Part shown: positions 2,383 through 9,530 of the stretch, piece after piece | How positions within the stretch are numbered: the first letter of the stretch is position 1 | How the letters are laid out: each line of letters begins with the position of its first letter | Source: a bacterium | GTDB lineage: Bacteria; JAJVIF01; JAGGVT01 | DNA: 9,530 nt | Direction: 5' to 3' | Assembly: GCA_021157815.1 (NCBI GenBank) | Contig: JAGGVT010000017.1 | Location: 1 to 9,530, forward strand | Program-made: the position numbers and the translations under genes | The notes under the pieces: generated by a model | Seen by the model: only the letters and a program-made list of their open reading frames with translations | Database searches by the model: none | Told to the model about the DNA's origin: nothing

Positions 2383-2556
2383 TCAACCTACTAACCTGCT
2401 AACTTGCTAACCTGCTAACCTGCTAACTTGCTAACTTGCTAACCTGTTAACTTGCTAACCTGCTAACTTGCTAACCTGCTAACTTACTAACCTGCTAACT
2501 TACTAACTTACTAACCTACTAACCTGCTAACCTGCTAACTTGCTAACTTTCTAACC
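2383..2556. repeat. 8-bp tandem repeat array, unit CTAACYTR
   Basis: Twenty complete 8-bp units run from 2391 to 2550, preceded by a degenerate unit (2383-2390) and ending with a partial CTAACC at 2551-2556. Nearly all variation is C/T at position 6 and G/A at position 8 (CTAACCTG, CTAACTTG, CTAACTTA), with one TTAACTTG and one CTAACTTT. The last partial unit supplies the hydF stop codon (CTA on plus, TAG on minus) and its preceding Gly codon. The array is therefore just outside the coding region and does not phase-shift hydF. Confidence 0.9.
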
Positions 2557-3768
2557 ATCATCATCCGCAATCATATCTGGAAACGGCGACAGCATCCTGT
2601 CAAAAACGCCGAGGGAAAACGCGATTGTCAAACCGTAATTGGAAATCGGTACTCCGGCATCTTTCACTTTCAACAAACGTGAGATAACCTCTCTGCGATT
2701 TAACATGCACGAACCGCACATGATAACCAGTTGAAATTCTGAAAGGTCATCCGGGAAATCATGTCCGGCGTAATGAGTAAACTCAAGATCGCCGCCAACA
2801 AATTTTCCCAGCCATTTCGGGATTTTCTCACGGCCGATATCATCAGCAATAGGGTGATGCGTACACGCCTCGGCGACTAACACTTTATCACCGGGTTTCA
2901 GATTATTTATAGCGTAAGTGCCTCGGACAAATGTTTCAAAATCACCTTTCCAACGAGCATACAGAACAGAGAATCCGGTAACCGGAATGTCAGTGGGAAC
3001 ATCCGCCGCGACCTGCAGAATCGCCTGCGAATCAGTTATCACGATTTTGGGATTGATTTTAAGCATGTCCAAAGTTCCCGGCAGTTCATTTTCCTTGACA
3101 ATAATCGCGCGGGCGTCGTAATCCAGAATCTCCCTAATCACCTGTGCCTGCGGTAGTATCAATCGCCCTTTCGGAGCTTCAAGGTCAATTGGAATTACGA
3201 GAACGACAGTATCGCCGGGTTCGACAATGCCTGACAGGATACTTGTCGGATTCATGAAATCATCAGGAGCGAGTTTGACAATTGCGCCACGTAGTTCAGC
3301 CATTCCGACATCCTCAAGCGCGTTGGTTTTAACAACCGAACTTGCCAGCTCTTCAGCAAGTTTTATTGAGCCGCTGTCAGGTTTCTTTAAATCGATTTTA
3401 CTGAAAACAATCACGGATGGTATTTCGAGTTTTTTCAATTCCTGAAGAATTTCTTTTTCATAATCGCCGATGCCGTCATCTGTGATTACAAGCGCGATTT
3501 CGGTTCTATCCATCGCCTTCAGAGTTTTGCGGATTCGCTTTTCGCCAAGTTCACCGACATCATCCAAGCCAGCAGTGTCGAGAAAAATAACAGGTCCGAT
3601 TGGCTTTAACTCCATCGCTTTTTTAACAATGTCAGTTGTAGTGCCGGGGATTTCGGAAACAATCGCGATTTCCTGTCCGGTCAGCGCGTTCAGCAGAGAT
3701 GATTTGCCGACATTGCGGCGTCCGAACAATCCGATGTGAAGCCGTACTCCTCTGGGTGTGCCCTTCAT
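2551..3768 (-). CDS. hydF: [FeFe]-hydrogenase maturation GTPase HydF
   Basis: HydF is the scaffold on which the diiron subcluster precursor is completed and from which it is handed to apo-HydA; GTP hydrolysis regulates its partner exchange. The 405 residues have the full family architecture. The N-terminal Era/TrmE-like G domain has the P-loop GRRNVGKS (16-23), switch I PGTTTD (41-46), DTAG (64-67) and SKID (123-126, in place of NKxD). A middle dimerisation region follows, and then the C-terminal Fe-S domain with C302-T-H304 and C351-G-S-C354. The family motif is CxH-x(44-53)-HCxxC; here the residue before the CxxC is Met350, not His. ATG 3768 is chosen because 'MKGTPRGVRLHIGLFGRRN' aligns with the usual HydF N-terminus; its ribosome site is weak (GGGG, 5 bases upstream). 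It lies 75 bases downstream of hydG on the same strand, and its 3' end abuts the 8-bp repeat. Confidence 0.95.
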   Translation of the reverse strand: MKGTPRGVRLHIGLFGRRNVGKSSLLNALTGQEIAIVSEIPGTTTDIVKKAMELKPIGPVIFLDTAGLDDVGELGEKRIRKTLKAMDRTEIALVITDDGIGDYEKEILQELKKLEIPSVIVFSKIDLKKPDSGSIKLAEELASSVVKTNALEDVGMAELRGAIVKLAPDDFMNPTSILSGIVEPGDTVVLVIPIDLEAPKGRLILPQAQVIREILDYDARAIIVKENELPGTLDMLKINPKIVITDSQAILQVAADVPTDIPVTGFSVLYARWKGDFETFVRGTYAINNLKPGDKVLVAEACTHHPIADDIGREKIPKWLGKFVGGDLEFTHYAGHDFPDDLSEFQLVIMCGSCMLNRREVISRLLKVKDAGVPISNYGLTIAFSLGVFDRMLSPFPDMIADDDG

Positions 3769-3843: not shown

Positions 3844-5244
3844 TTAACAAAAAACATCACGTTTTCCTGATCGTACCTTCTCCAATTGCTTTATTGAAAA
3901 TTCCCTCAATGTATCATCCATTTGGTCAATTGTGCTGGTGATTAGTTTCTCGCCGATATCGCGTGTTTCATCAGAGCCATAATCAATAAGATACTCAAGA
4001 AATGTAGCAAGCGCGTTTGGTTCACAATGTTTCTTGATTTCACCCGGTTTTGCCAAATCCATGAAATCCATACCTGTGCGGCCCAATCTGTAACACGCCG
4101 TGCAGAACGATGGGATAAATCCCAACGATGCTGCATCCTGAATGACCTCATCAAGCGTGCGATGATCGCCCAGTTGAAATTGGCTTGAGACGCCCTCGAA
4201 AGGATTGTCGGAATATCCGCCCGGATTAGTCCTGCTGCCTGCCGAAATTTGCGAAATTCCCAGAGCGAAAGATTCCCTGCGGATACGCGGCGTTTCACGT
4301 GTCGTGATTATCATTCCCGTATACGGCACCGCGAGCCTGAAAATCGCGATTAGTTTCGAAAAATCATCATCGGATACTTCATGCGGAGGATTTGTGGTTA
4401 TCTCACATCCAAGCGCGGGTTCGAGTCGGGGAATGCTTATCGTATGCGGTCCAACTCCGAATTTATCCTCAAGATGATTGATATGCTGCATCATTCCAAG
4501 AACCTCAAACCGCCAGTCGTAAAGCCCGAATAAAACGCCGATTCCGACATCATCAATTCCCGCTTCCATAGCGCGATCCATTGCTGTGATTCTGAAATCG
4601 TAATCACGTTTCTTGCCACGCGGATGAACCTCGGCGTATGTCTCCCGATGATATGTCTCCTGAAATATCTGATAAGTTCCAATTTGCGCGGCTTTAAGTT
4701 CCCTGAATTCATCAACATTAAGCGGCGCGACATTTACATTAATCCTGCGAATCTCACCGTTATCGACTTTCGTTTTATAAATCGTTTCAATCGATTTCAG
4801 GACATAGGAGATTCCCTCATCCGGGTATGCCTCACCGGTAACCAGAAGAACTCTCTTGTGCCCCTGCCTGACAAGCGCCTTAACCTCGTTCGCGATTTCA
4901 TCCTGCGACAGCGTGCGACGGACAATATCGCGATTGCTGGCACGAAAAGCGCAGTATATGCAATCGTTGCGGCAGAAATTCGAAATATAAAGCGGAACGA
5001 AAAGAACCAGCCTTTTGCCGTAGATTGTTTCTTTTACATAGCGTGCAGTTTCGAATAGATTCTTCAGCAGCGATGGTTCCTCAATCGCGGTAAGGTACGC
5101 GACATCCTCAAGATTCAAGCCTTTCAGTTCACGGGCTTTATCAAGGATGCCAATAATCCTGTCGGAATCATTCGCTGTACATGTTTCAAGAAGCGAGTTT
5201 ATTTTCGCTTCATCTATCGGAACTGAATTAGTTTGTTTATTCAT
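3844..5244 (-). CDS. hydG: [FeFe]-hydrogenase maturase HydG (tyrosine lyase, radical SAM)
   Basis: HydG cleaves tyrosine to p-cresol and dehydroglycine and converts the latter to CO and cyanide, releasing an Fe(CO)2CN-cysteine synthon for the H-cluster. The 466 residues match the family's length. The SAM [4Fe-4S] motif C-x3-C-x2-C is at Cys91, Cys95 and Cys98 (FCRNDCIYCAFRASN). The C-terminal auxiliary-cluster motif C-x2-C-x22-C is at Cys381, Cys384 and Cys407, in the HydG-type context CTACYRLGRTG..FM. This motif separates it from the thiamine enzyme ThiH. 'ETYHRETYAEVHPRGKKRDYDFRI' (196-219) and 'GVGPHTISIPRLEPA' (263-277) are further family blocks. The start at ATG 5244 has a good ribosome site, GGGAAGGA, five bases upstream. 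It is followed by hydF on the same strand and preceded by a 277-bp gap after hydA, so it may share the hydCBA transcript or have its own promoter; none was clear. Confidence 0.97.
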   Translation of the reverse strand: MNKQTNSVPIDEAKINSLLETCTANDSDRIIGILDKARELKGLNLEDVAYLTAIEEPSLLKNLFETARYVKETIYGKRLVLFVPLYISNFCRNDCIYCAFRASNRDIVRRTLSQDEIANEVKALVRQGHKRVLLVTGEAYPDEGISYVLKSIETIYKTKVDNGEIRRINVNVAPLNVDEFRELKAAQIGTYQIFQETYHRETYAEVHPRGKKRDYDFRITAMDRAMEAGIDDVGIGVLFGLYDWRFEVLGMMQHINHLEDKFGVGPHTISIPRLEPALGCEITTNPPHEVSDDDFSKLIAIFRLAVPYTGMIITTRETPRIRRESFALGISQISAGSRTNPGGYSDNPFEGVSSQFQLGDHRTLDEVIQDAASLGFIPSFCTACYRLGRTGMDFMDLAKPGEIKKHCEPNALATFLEYLIDYGSDETRDIGEKLITSTIDQMDDTLREFSIKQLEKVRSGKRDVFC

Positions 5245-5521: not shown

Positions 5522-7363
5522 CTAAACCAGGCACTTGCCGCGCTCAGTATAATGAGTATGCAGCAGTTTATGGCTTTTGTGTCCGCATGGGCCATCAGTA
5601 AGGAAATCGCTGTAAATCATCGCGATTGCCGGATTCTCATGCGATTTTCTTGTTTCATAAGCGCTATCCTCAGAATAAATCGCTTTTTTTCGCGCCTCGC
5701 GAATTTCCGGTGATGTTGGAATCGGCTGGCCGCCGCCTCCAAGGCATCCGCCCGGACACGCCATGAACTCGATGAAATGACATTCACTGAACTTGCCGCC
5801 AGCTTTGATATCCTCCATTACCTTTTTCGCGTTGGCTGTTCCATGAGCGACTCCCACCTTCAGTGTCGCGCCTTTCAGCCAGTCCCAATTGGGAATAAGG
5901 TTTTTAAGAAGGTCGGGAACCGGGCCAACTTCAGGAATGTGTATCTCAGCGTACTTGACACCCTCGAATCCACGAACTGGAATGATATCCGCGTGCTCAT
6001 AGAAATCCTCAACCTTCTTGCCGGTAACGAGCTCGATTACAGCGCGAAGCGCTGATTCCATTACACCGCCGGTTACCCCGAATATAACTCCGGAACCTGT
6101 AGCGGTGCCGAATGGATCATCGAAATCAGATTTTGGGCAATTAGGAAGATCAATTCCAGCCTCTTTAATCATCTTGCCAAGTTCGCGAGTTGTGAGCGCA
6201 TAATCAAGATCCTGATAACCGCTGGCGCACATTTCCGGCCGTTGAGACTCGAATTTCTTTGCCGTGCATGGCATAAGCGAAATACTGACAATGTCTTTCG
6301 CATCAATGTCTTTTTGCTCAGCGTAGAATGTTTTAATCAAAGCACCGAACATCTGCTGCGGACTCTTGCAGCTGGAAACGTTTGCCAGATATTCAGGATA
6401 GAAATGCTCGATATATTTAACCCATCCCGGTGAACAGCTTGTAAATTGCGGAAGCGCGACCTCTTCACCCGCCACCAGCGCCTTATAAAGCCTGGTGATA
6501 AGCTCTGTGCCTTCCTCGATAATTGTAAGGTCGGCTGAGAAGTTCGTATCGAAAACCTTATCGAATCCCGCCATTTTGATAGCGGTGTTCATTTCGAATG
6601 TAACAGGAGTTCCGGGTTCCAGATCGAAATATTCACCCATGCCGGCTCGTGGTGATGGCGCTGTCTGAATGACAACGTGCTTTTTAGGATCATCAATCGC
6701 AGCCCAGATTTCATCCGTCTGGTCTTTCTCAGTCAAAGCGCCGGTCGGGCATCTGTTGACACACTGTCCGCAGTTGATGCAGACAACGTCATTAAGCGGA
6801 CTCTCCATGAAAGTTGCAATCTCAGTCCATTCACTTCTGCCAATCACATTAAGCGCGCCTACTCCCTGCATTTCCATACATGTCCTGACACATCTGCGAC
6901 AAAGGATGCACTTGTTCATGTCACGGACAATAGCCGAACTAGATGTATCCATCTCGAATATTGGTTCTTCAGGATGACCGAATCGGAATTCATCCACGCC
7001 GTACTCGGCAGCAAGGTCCTGAAGTTCGCAGTTGCCGTTACGGTTGCATGCATAACATTCGCCGTAGTGTTTGGTCATGAGAAGGTCAAGAATATGACGT
7101 CTTGCTCTTCTGACTTTTGGCGATGTTGATTTCACAGTCATTGGACGTGTAATGGGATAGGCACACGCTGCTTGAAGGACTCTTTCACCCTCGACTTCAA
7201 CCACGCACATCCTGCAGTTTCCAGCGACACAGAGATCATCATGAGCGCAGAGGGTCGGGATATGAATGTTAAGCATTTTCGCGGATTCAAGAATCGTTGT
7301 TCCTGATTTCACCTCGATTTCCTGAGCGTCAATGGTAAGTTTTATTATGTTTTTATCTGCCAT
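5522..7363 (-). CDS. hydA: NAD-linked [FeFe] hydrogenase catalytic subunit HydA
   Basis: The catalytic subunit, reducing protons to H2 (or the reverse) at the H-cluster in the cytoplasm. From ATG 7363 it has 613 residues. A plant-type [2Fe-2S] domain uses Cys39, 50, 53 and 67. The His-Cys [4Fe-4S] site is His99, Cys103, 106 and 112. Two ferredoxin-like clusters use Cys152/155/158/162 and Cys195/198/201/205. The H-cluster domain has L1 TSCSPGW (308-314), L2 MPCTAKKFE (364-372) and L3 EFMACPGGCLGGGGQP (532-547). The small-subunit-like tail 'HKLLHTHYTERGKCLV' closes the protein, and no extra C-terminal [2Fe-2S] domain follows. L1 has Ser where the standard TSCCPxW has its second Cys. An in-frame GTG at 7372 would add three residues. 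ATG 7363 is preferred because GGGTGA sits five bases upstream of it, whereas the GTG lies inside that site. HydB ends 15 bases upstream, so they are cotranscribed. Confidence 0.95.
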   Translation of the reverse strand: MADKNIIKLTIDAQEIEVKSGTTILESAKMLNIHIPTLCAHDDLCVAGNCRMCVVEVEGERVLQAACAYPITRPMTVKSTSPKVRRARRHILDLLMTKHYGECYACNRNGNCELQDLAAEYGVDEFRFGHPEEPIFEMDTSSSAIVRDMNKCILCRRCVRTCMEMQGVGALNVIGRSEWTEIATFMESPLNDVVCINCGQCVNRCPTGALTEKDQTDEIWAAIDDPKKHVVIQTAPSPRAGMGEYFDLEPGTPVTFEMNTAIKMAGFDKVFDTNFSADLTIIEEGTELITRLYKALVAGEEVALPQFTSCSPGWVKYIEHFYPEYLANVSSCKSPQQMFGALIKTFYAEQKDIDAKDIVSISLMPCTAKKFESQRPEMCASGYQDLDYALTTRELGKMIKEAGIDLPNCPKSDFDDPFGTATGSGVIFGVTGGVMESALRAVIELVTGKKVEDFYEHADIIPVRGFEGVKYAEIHIPEVGPVPDLLKNLIPNWDWLKGATLKVGVAHGTANAKKVMEDIKAGGKFSECHFIEFMACPGGCLGGGGQPIPTSPEIREARKKAIYSEDSAYETRKSHENPAIAMIYSDFLTDGPCGHKSHKLLHTHYTERGKCLV

Positions 7364-7378
7364 AATTTTCACCCTTCC

Positions 7379-8587
7379 CTATACGGATATGGGCTCTCTG
7401 CCCATGATCTCGTCCTTGAAATGTTTAACGATTGACAGGAATGCACGTGCGCTGGTCTGTCCAAGCCCGCATTTTGACGCCACTTTCATTGTTTCTCCCA
7501 ATGAAACCAGCTCATTGAGATACTTCATGGAGCATTTGCCCTCTTCGAGAAGTTCAACGCCATCAAGCAGCACTACATTGCCCTCGCGGCACGGTGTGCA
7601 TTGTCCGCAGGATTCCTCAACGAAAAACTCGAGGAAATTCTTCGCGACATGAAGCATGTCTCGATCCTGTCCGAAAACAATTATCGAACCGCCGGTGGCA
7701 ATATCCTCAAACGCGATTTTCCTGCCGATGTCTTTTGCCGGTACACAAATTCCTGACGCGCCGCCAATCTGAATGGCTTTGACTTTACATGGGGTACCTT
7801 TCTCACATTCACATCCAGCCATGTGGAGAATGTCGCTGATTTTTGTTCCGAACTCAATTTCATAAACGCCTGGATTTGCGATATCGCCCGAGATACTCAG
7901 AAGTTTGAATCCTGCTGATTGCTCGGTGCCGGCGCTTTTAAACCATTTCGCGCCTTTGCTCATGACAGCAGCTGCCCAGCAAAGTGTTTCAACATTATTT
8001 ACGATTGTTGCCTTGTGCTTGAAACCGTCCTCAACTGGGAACGGTGGACGGTTTCTCGGCTCGCCACGCTGTCCCTCAAGCGATTCAATCAACGCCGATT
8101 CCTCACCGCAGATATACGCGCCAGCGCCCATCTGGATTCTAATATCAAAATCGAATCCCTTGCCGAGAATGTTTTCTCCGAGAAGATTTTCCTCTCGACG
8201 TTTCGCAAGGACATCCTCAAGGTGGGCGAGTAGGTAGGTGTATTCAGCGCGGAGATAGAGAATTCCGCTTTTCGCGCCGATTGCGAATCCGCCGATTGTC
8301 ATTCCCTCGAAAACCAAATCAGCGAAATCGGATAGCAGAAGTCTGTCTTTAAACGTGCCGGGCTCGCCTTCGTCGGCGTTGCAGATTACAAATTTTTCAT
8401 CTGATTCCGCCTCAGCTGCCAGTTTCCATTTGAAGCCAGCCGGAAAACCAGCGCCGCCTCGACCCTTTAACGCGGAGTCGCTTATCGTGCCGATAACATC
8501 AGCTGGTTTAGTTCCGATTGCAGCTTTGAGTCCGGCGTCTTTATCGAGTGTACTAAAAGTAAGGTCGTTCGTTTTTGTTTCAATCAT
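7379..8587 (-). CDS. hydB: NADH-binding FMN/Fe-S subunit HydB (NuoF-like), short form
   Basis: The diaphorase subunit: it binds NAD(H) and FMN and passes electrons between NADH and the Fe-S chain to HydA. It has 402 residues from ATG 8587. The FMN-binding glycine-rich GRGGAGFP is at 42-49, 'CNADEGEPGTFKDR' at 69-82, and the NADH/FMN block 'GAGAYICGEESALIESLEGQRGEPR' at 154-178. An SLBB-type segment (about 228-260, 'LLSISGDIANPGVYEI') follows, and a C-terminal [4Fe-4S] site at Cys327, 330, 333 and 373 (ESCGQCTPCREG). It lacks both the N-terminal thioredoxin-like [2Fe-2S] domain and the C-terminal 2[4Fe-4S] ferredoxin domain of long (about 600 aa) bifurcating HydB proteins. The frame stays open upstream to an ATG at 8641, but that lies inside hydC. 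The real start has AGGAGG ten bases upstream, within the last hydC codons. Complex I NuoF is unlikely because the neighbours are hydC and hydA. Confidence 0.94.
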   Translation of the reverse strand: MIETKTNDLTFSTLDKDAGLKAAIGTKPADVIGTISDSALKGRGGAGFPAGFKWKLAAEAESDEKFVICNADEGEPGTFKDRLLLSDFADLVFEGMTIGGFAIGAKSGILYLRAEYTYLLAHLEDVLAKRREENLLGENILGKGFDFDIRIQMGAGAYICGEESALIESLEGQRGEPRNRPPFPVEDGFKHKATIVNNVETLCWAAAVMSKGAKWFKSAGTEQSAGFKLLSISGDIANPGVYEIEFGTKISDILHMAGCECEKGTPCKVKAIQIGGASGICVPAKDIGRKIAFEDIATGGSIIVFGQDRDMLHVAKNFLEFFVEESCGQCTPCREGNVVLLDGVELLEEGKCSMKYLNELVSLGETMKVASKCGLGQTSARAFLSIVKHFKDEIMGREPISV

Positions 8588-8589
8588 GA

Positions 8590-9105
8590 TTATTGAACCT
8601 CCTTTGCAGTTGTTTCGCAGCAGCAACAGGCTTTTCTGCAATCCGCGATTATCTCACTAACTTTTTCCGCGGTGACCTTGGTGTAAATGCAGTCGTTTAC
8701 CATCATTGCGGGCCCCTGGTCGCACATTCCAAGGCAGCTTGTGTAAAGCAGTGTGAACATGCCGTCATCGGATGTTTCCCCGAATGTGATTCCAAGATCA
8801 TTCTCCAATTGCCTCGCGATCTGGTCTTTGCCGAGCATGTCGCAGGAGATAGTTTCGCACAGGCGAAATATATATTTCCCCTGCGGTTCCTCGCTGAGAA
8901 AGCTGTAAAACGTAACAACGCTGTAAACCTCGATGGGATGAATGCCAAGAAGGTTCGCGATTTCCTGCATGGCAACACTTGAGATGTAATAATACTTCTT
9001 CTGAATCGCCCTCAGGATGGGGATGAGAGAGCCGTGATCCTTGCCGTATTCTTCCGCAAGTGACCGAATTTCTTCTCTCATTTTTTCCTGTTCGGTCAGT
9101 AACAT
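8590..9105 (-). CDS. hydC: [2Fe-2S] subunit HydC (NuoE-like)
   Basis: The small thioredoxin-fold [2Fe-2S] subunit that partners HydB in the diaphorase module, and the first gene of the operon. In 171 residues it has the NuoE helical N-terminus (about 1-75, with 'YYYISSVAMQEIANLLGIHPIEVYSVVTFYSFL'). The four cluster cysteines are Cys83 and Cys88 (LCETISCDML) and Cys124 and Cys128 (SCLGMCDQGP), i.e. C-x4-C and C-x3-C as in NuoE. The length is normal for the family, but the C-terminus ends with a run of four cysteines at 160-163 (KACCCCETTAKEVQ), which I do not associate with NuoE proteins. ATG 9105 has GGAG about ten bases upstream. The stop is only two bases before the hydB start, and the hydB ribosome site lies in its final codons, so the two are tightly coupled. 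Confidence 0.93.
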   Translation of the reverse strand: MLLTEQEKMREEIRSLAEEYGKDHGSLIPILRAIQKKYYYISSVAMQEIANLLGIHPIEVYSVVTFYSFLSEEPQGKYIFRLCETISCDMLGKDQIARQLENDLGITFGETSDDGMFTLLYTSCLGMCDQGPAMMVNDCIYTKVTAEKVSEIIADCRKACCCCETTAKEVQ

Positions 9106-9262
9106 AAATCTAATTCTCCTTATAGCGTAAGCGGATTAGCTGCATAAAAGGTAATGTCATTTGGTTCCTTTCTATGTAATGAATACTAGTAAAATTAACC
9201 CATAAAAAGATTAGTGAAAACATTCATTCTGAAGCAAGTGAAAAAAATCACTATCAATTATT

Positions 9263-9291
9263 ATTAAAAAGTATTTCAGAATGAAATACAA
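9263..9291 (-). promoter_or_regulatory. Weak promoter candidate for hydCBA
   Basis: On the minus strand TTGTAT (9291-9286) and TTTAAT (9268-9263) are 17 bases apart. The -10 matches 5/6, but the -35 only 3/6. It lies 19 bases downstream of the Rex-like operator and would give a leader of roughly 150 bases before hydC. The AT-rich background makes chance matches likely, and no better pair was found. Confidence 0.25.
9271..9289. promoter_or_regulatory. 19-bp dyad in the hydC leader, possible operator
   Basis: GTATTTCA (9271-9278) and TGAAATAC (9282-9289) form a perfect 8-bp inverted repeat around GAA. Part of it, TTCAGAATGAA (9275-9285), is also the exact inverse of TTCATTCTGAA at 9223-9233. 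The dyad sits in the spacer of the promoter candidate. I do not recognise a regulator for it. Confidence 0.35.
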
Positions 9292-9309
9292 GACCTTGGA
9301 GGCGTTATT

Positions 9310-9327
9310 TTGTGAAAATTTTCACAA
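9310..9327. promoter_or_regulatory. Rex-type redox operator upstream of hydCBA
   Basis: TTGTGAAAATTTTCACAA is a perfect 18-bp palindrome and matches the Rex consensus TTGTGAA-N4-TTCACAA at every specified position. Rex is a repressor that leaves DNA when NADH/NAD+ rises. The site lies 205 bases upstream of the hydC start, in the gene-free region ahead of an NADH-linked hydrogenase operon, a known kind of Rex target in fermentative bacteria. Two poorer matches (10 of 14 fixed positions) occur at 9212-9229 and 9236-9253, nearer to hydC. The rex gene is not in this window. Confidence 0.8.
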
Positions 9328-9530
9328 GTGTTGGTTGTAACTAATAAATGCTTCTTTTTATTCGATTTTGAGTATTAATGAGTACTTAAAAAGACTGTTT
9401 ACGGTGGAAGGTGATCTTTTTCTTTACGATTACTAACAGCATTCCCACCCTCGTGATTTCGACATCTTTAGTCCCGGGAGATTTGGCACCCTTGCCGGAA
9501 AGTTGGGTGCGTCAGCACCCCTGTTTTCCA
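9328..9530. other. Gene-free stretch at right edge
   Basis: Together with 9106-9309 this makes about 425 bases without a supportable gene on either strand. The part up to 9400 is AT-rich. The last 45 bases are GC-richer and structured: GCACCC (9486-9491) can pair with GGGTGC (9505-9510), which can instead pair with GCACCC (9515-9520) around a GTCA loop. The second hairpin is followed by CTGTTTTCC, which could serve as a weak plus-strand terminator. The window ends here, so no gene can be assigned to it. Confidence 0.45.

Follow-up and report, generated by a model that had tools for sequence, protein, structure and literature searches.

The hydrogenase genes and the palindrome upstream of hydC

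The window, by which we mean the whole 9,530-nucleotide stretch of DNA analysed, carries [FeFe] hydrogenase genes on its minus strand in the order hydC, hydB, hydA, hydG and hydF, behind a perfect 9+9 bp palindrome, TTGTGAAAATTTTCACAA, at positions 9310-9327. The identities previously given to these five genes were correct. The first gene behind the palindrome is hydC (8590-9105, 171 aa), which encodes a NuoE-like [2Fe-2S] subunit, followed by hydB (7379-8587), which encodes the NuoF-like NADH/FMN subunit; the list of open reading frames starts hydB at a TTG at 8641, but the ATG at 8587 (MIETKTNDL...) looks the likelier start. The hydA gene (5522-7372) encodes a 616 aa catalytic subunit that also contains a small-subunit domain, while hydG (3844-5244) and hydF (2551-3768) encode an H-cluster radical SAM maturase (TIGR03955) and the H-cluster maturation GTPase (TIGR03918), respectively. 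Since neither a terminator-like site nor a further box was found in the 277 bp gap between hydA and hydG, a single hydCBAGF transcript is plausible. The gene for another radical SAM maturase of the H-cluster, hydE (1067-2056, TIGR03956), lies on the plus strand, convergent with these genes and not behind the palindrome. Directly before hydE, and likewise on the strand opposite hydG and hydF, is a gene for an NADPH-dependent FMN reductase-like protein (492-1061).

The enzyme had been described as NADH-linked, and this is supported by both HydA and HydB. HydA scored 797 bits against the NCBIfam model NF040763 (group A6, NADH-dependent), which has a cut-off of 765 bits, and the NADH site of HydB carries NADEGEPGTFKD (GTFKD), the published non-bifurcating pattern. 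Criteria for the non-bifurcating, ferredoxin-independent type of HydB have been given (PMC7311640, PMC9304861), namely T or S followed by K, S or A at the positions corresponding to T. maritima 232 and 234, and no extra Fe-S domains (PMC7311640); we equated the HydB positions to T. maritima 232 and 234 by eye and not through an alignment. Using Pfam, we found only the Complex1_51K, SLBB and NADH_4Fe-4S domains in HydB, with a single B1-type Fe-S domain and no additional ferredoxin-type Fe-S domains. The GTFKD signature suggests that the electron partner is probably NADH alone, and that the hydrogenase is probably non-bifurcating, NADH-dependent and ferredoxin-independent. By the same HydB criteria it is of one type with Syntrophomonas wolfei Hyd1ABC and Syntrophus aciditrophicus HydAB (PMC5626996, PMC7311640), in reports that concern the enzyme itself. 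If the enzyme is non-bifurcating, its direction would be set by NADH/NAD+ and H2 pressure alone, so that a sensor of NADH/NAD+ would be a direct fit for its control.

The claim that the palindrome fits the Rex box at all fixed positions was borne out. TTGTGAAAATTTTCACAA matches 14 of the 14 fixed positions of TTGTGAAN4TTCACAA and, in a pattern scan, was the only exact copy of this consensus in the 3,217,173-base genome; about 0.02-0.05 exact matches would be expected in 3.2 Mb, varying with the G+C used, and the reversed control pattern had none in the whole genome. The palindrome lies in a 425-bp upstream region of 35% G+C and is separated from hydC by a leader of 205 bp, a greater distance than that between box and gene at the other targets described below. 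The upstream region was searched for sigma-70-like promoters, and none was found near TTGTGAAAATTTTCACAA.

Rex and its predicted sites within the genome

The first-pass annotation had read the palindrome as a Rex operator, and looked to the rest of the genome for a rex gene and for the same box before other redox genes; both are present. One rex gene was found (L002:1468-2121), on a contig other than that of the hyd genes. Its 217 aa product has the domains PF06971 and PF02629 (winged-helix plus Rossmann NAD(H) domain), scored 237 bits against the subfamily model NF003995 (cut-off 126), lies above the cut-off of several Rex models, has Rex structures as all of its best PDB matches, and keeps the GxGxxG motif and the RKDL..GEFG.RG.GY.V region. 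TTGTGATAAAATTAACAA, which has two mismatches to the box, is found 142 bp upstream of rex itself. Further intergenic boxes with no more than two mismatches stand before hbd (3-hydroxybutyryl-CoA dehydrogenase, at -136), etfB (-98), two thiolase genes (an acetyl-CoA acetyltransferase and a thiolase-domain protein, at -76 and -85), rnfC (-61), an isocitrate/homoisocitrate-type dehydrogenase (-98), and a small gene that has glutamate dehydrogenase behind it (-101). A few of the remaining boxes lie before genes without an obvious redox role, such as those for a STAS-domain protein and a relative of HNH-type nucleases. The small gene that sits between its one-mismatch Rex box and glutamate dehydrogenase (L098:2527-2871; G000 contig C66) encodes a 114-aa cysteine-containing protein with no known NCBIfam family.

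Sites with two or fewer mismatches numbered 45 genome-wide versus 15 for the reversed control, these counts being drawn from pattern scans. Thirteen of the 15 control sites fell inside coding frames, and the other two were intergenic and faced a gene, overlapping or adjoining the hydC and hbd promoters. Sites of the kind listed above accounted for 11 of the 45 box sites and for 0 of 13 independent control sites, a difference that is coherent in function but borderline (p = 0.055), with target names assigned unblinded and by eye from sequence and NCBIfam matches. Three members of the same class also carry rex (42-45% identity), and together their genomes contained 13 sites with at most one mismatch versus one for the control. 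In our reading of the sequences, made by eye, these boxes precede, among others, thiolase-hbd, PFOR (in two genomes), a fumarate reductase/succinate dehydrogenase-like pair, the nuo operon, etfB and genes for a malic enzyme and an acyl-CoA dehydrogenase; such a set of predicted targets is typical of Rex regulons.

The palindrome also fits TTGTGAN6TCACAA perfectly, which is the overlapping motif reported for Desulfovibrio HcpR (PMC545781, PMC1274295), and it might be read as a site for a regulator of the CRP/FNR family (TGTGA-N6-TCACA), for example an HcpR-like protein, that would make the hydrogenase respond to nitrosative stress or to electron-acceptor signals and not to NADH. A single gene in the genome does exceed the CRP/FNR family cut-off, and its divergent orientation from hcp points to an HcpR-like regulator. 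However, the recognition helix of this sole CRP/FNR protein reads IPETLSR, with Pro at the position of CRP R180, and Pro or Ser there goes with TTGACN4GTCAA and not with TGTGA (PMC1274295); neither the regulator family nor the specificity residues of Desulfovibrio HcpR match this protein. The intergenic region between this gene and hcp contains TTGACTTAAGTCAA and has no GTGA-N6-TCAC, and in the other GTGA sites of the genome, which precede rex and NAD-linked genes, A7/T12 is retained in 13 of the 16 half-sites. No second CRP/FNR gene over the cut-off, and no helix of the Arg180 type, was found in the genome, which is 91% complete; a second regulator of the CRP type could thus be missing from the assembly. 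On the Pro-type helix and the TTGACTTAAGTCAA site beside the regulator's own gene we rejected CRP/HcpR as the regulator and consider such control very unlikely. As an observation in its own right, the perfect TTGACTTAAGTCAA palindrome between the HcpR-like gene and the divergent hcp (L018:2160-2306; G000 contig C150) probably serves HcpR autoregulation.

Homologous hyd operons in other phyla

A scan of named genomes identified close homologues of HydA (68-75% identity) at 80 loci in the Planctomycetota, Hydrogenedentota, Neomarinimicrobiota, Latescibacterota, Acidobacteriota, Actinomycetota and others. Conservation of the palindrome upstream of hydC in relatives had been put forward as a check on the Rex reading, and it held for a minority of them. 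A box with two or fewer mismatches was present within 1 kb upstream of hydC in 12 of the 65 testable loci, which came from many phyla (the boxed ones from several, with four exact boxes), while the reversed control was present within the same 1 kb in 0 of 65 (Fisher p = 0.0003). No recognisable box was found within 1 kb before hydC in the other 53, and the box is therefore recurrent rather than universal. The first scan, over 400 bp before hydC, had returned just two boxed loci, and the distance was widened to 1 kb, for box and reversed control alike, after the data had been seen. The shorter scan was misleading because a response-regulator gene lies just before hydC in most relatives, which puts the start of their operon farther upstream than in the window. 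This gene, which encodes a CheY-like protein of about 125 aa (MAKILIVDDDPD...), directly precedes hydC in most of the homologous operons (L116-L195) and is absent from the window's own hyd operon. In the relatives, the box precedes either the response-regulator gene or hydC directly. A footprint search with HydC alone found nothing.

The positions of these boxes bear on whether the palindrome in the window, as a Rex site, might chiefly serve not hydCBA but some divergent gene that lies out of view past the right-hand end of the contig at 9530. Such an arrangement would suit the end of the contig just 203 bp beyond the box on that side, the long leader to hydC and the lack of a recognised hydC promoter. 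Against it, no plus-strand gene of at least 60 aa starts within 9328-9530, and the box lies on the hyd side of homologous operons in other lineages, examples being L118 with a leader of 268 bp and L117 with one of 87 bp. In L118 (on the same contig as G037/AUK292) the box directly follows TTGACA-N17-TATTGT, at the expected start of transcription, where a repressor would block transcription. We regard a mainly divergent role as very unlikely.

Recurrence at homologous operons likewise argues against the palindrome having arisen by chance in A+T-rich intergenic DNA and regulating nothing. The low G+C content of the upstream region and the fact that most homologous hyd operons have no box would be in keeping with chance, but an exact match would seldom be expected anywhere in a genome of this size, this one is placed before an NADH enzyme, and the box family is shared with other redox genes. 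We consider a chance origin very unlikely.

Predicted control by Rex and the hydC leader

The presence of rex, the boxes at genes of NAD and electron transfer, and the recurrence of the box before homologous hyd operons together support the original proposal of a Rex operator. We estimate a probability of roughly 90% that positions 9310-9327 are an operator for the NADH/NAD+-sensing repressor Rex, controlling hydCBA and probably hydGF. From what is known of Rex, we infer its binding to TTGTGAAAATTTTCACAA, the repression that follows and the direction of the response to NADH. At low NADH/NAD+, NAD+-bound Rex would sit on the palindrome and block minus-strand transcription of hydCBA and probably of hydGF, and as NADH rises, NADH-bound Rex would leave the DNA. 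The released operon would then supply a non-bifurcating, NADH-dependent [FeFe] hydrogenase that re-oxidises NADH, with formation of H2. Its own gene would also come under the control of this Rex, as would pathways that produce or consume NADH (hbd, etf, thiolase, rnf and gdh). In this way, a single redox switch would govern both an NADH-only hydrogenase and the beta-oxidation/Rnf electron pathway in an anaerobic lineage that is poorly known, which may be of use in predicting when such organisms release H2.

Rex control of [FeFe] hydrogenase is already known, with experimental support in Caldicellulosiruptor bescii and by prediction in Caldithrix abyssi. In C. bescii the consensus is the same, TTGTGAAN4TTCACAA, and binding of Rex to Fe-Fe hydrogenase genes has gel-shift support; its regulon (hyd operon, hydG and rex) has sites, as here, at the structural genes of the Fe-Fe hydrogenase and at rex (PMC6391272). 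The Rex sites of C. bescii include one at a maturase gene (PMC6391272); in the window one box would serve hydCBA and probably hydGF; C. bescii is also a Firmicute, whereas the present genome belongs to a little-sampled class and its HydB has the non-bifurcating signature. In C. abyssi, which like the present organism lies outside the Firmicutes, a Rex site is predicted before an NAD-dependent Fe-Fe hydrogenase, with two mismatches there (PMC5317091). The hyd cluster of C. abyssi opens with rex and encodes an enzyme similar to the bifurcating one of Moorella, in contrast to the present genome, where rex is on another contig. The locus is thus very probably a well-supported instance of a familiar kind of control in a little-studied bacterial lineage, and the homologous operons suggest that the link between Rex and hydrogenase, which has been documented for Firmicutes and predicted for Caldithrix, is found again in further phyla. 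It is possible, though less likely than not, that Rex control is a recurrent and perhaps co-inherited feature of a non-bifurcating, NADH-only [FeFe] hydrogenase operon that moves between phyla, with the box, in some cases as a pair spaced by about 65-75 bp, upstream in Planctomycetota, Hydrogenedentota, Latescibacterota, Neomarinimicrobiota and Acidobacteriota as well as in the present lineage. If true, the amount of an enzyme driven solely by NADH would be set by NADH/NAD+ itself.

Two weaker boxes on the hydC side of the palindrome, at 9212-9229 and 9236-9253, had been suggested to form a multi-site array with it. Both have four mismatches by plain count, and we scored them with a matrix built from eight other sites in the same genome, using shuffles of the 425-bp upstream region for comparison. 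The box at 9236-9253, AAGTGAAAAAAATCACTA, scored 15.2 bits, close to the 16.4 bits of the rnfC site, and 0.25% of shuffles contained an equal, while that at 9212-9229 scored 6.3 bits, was equalled in 14% of shuffles, and was rejected as being at chance level. The array would therefore be at most a pair, in which AAGTGAAAAAAATCACTA may tentatively be taken as a second, weaker Rex operator, its centre 74 bp from that of TTGTGAAAATTTTCACAA. Box pairs also exist in L116 and L126, spaced 65 and 71 bp. For positions 9104-9309 the fold had z = -1.9 and there was no Rfam match, and we do not claim a leader RNA element; no plasmid matches to the upstream region were found. Between TTGTGAAAATTTTCACAA and hydC there is, in addition, an exact inverted repeat of 11 bp, TTCATTCTGAA / TTCAGAATGAA, itself near-palindromic, whose copies at 9223-9233 and 9275-9285 lie 52 bp apart and could be sites for a second regulator or a leader hairpin.
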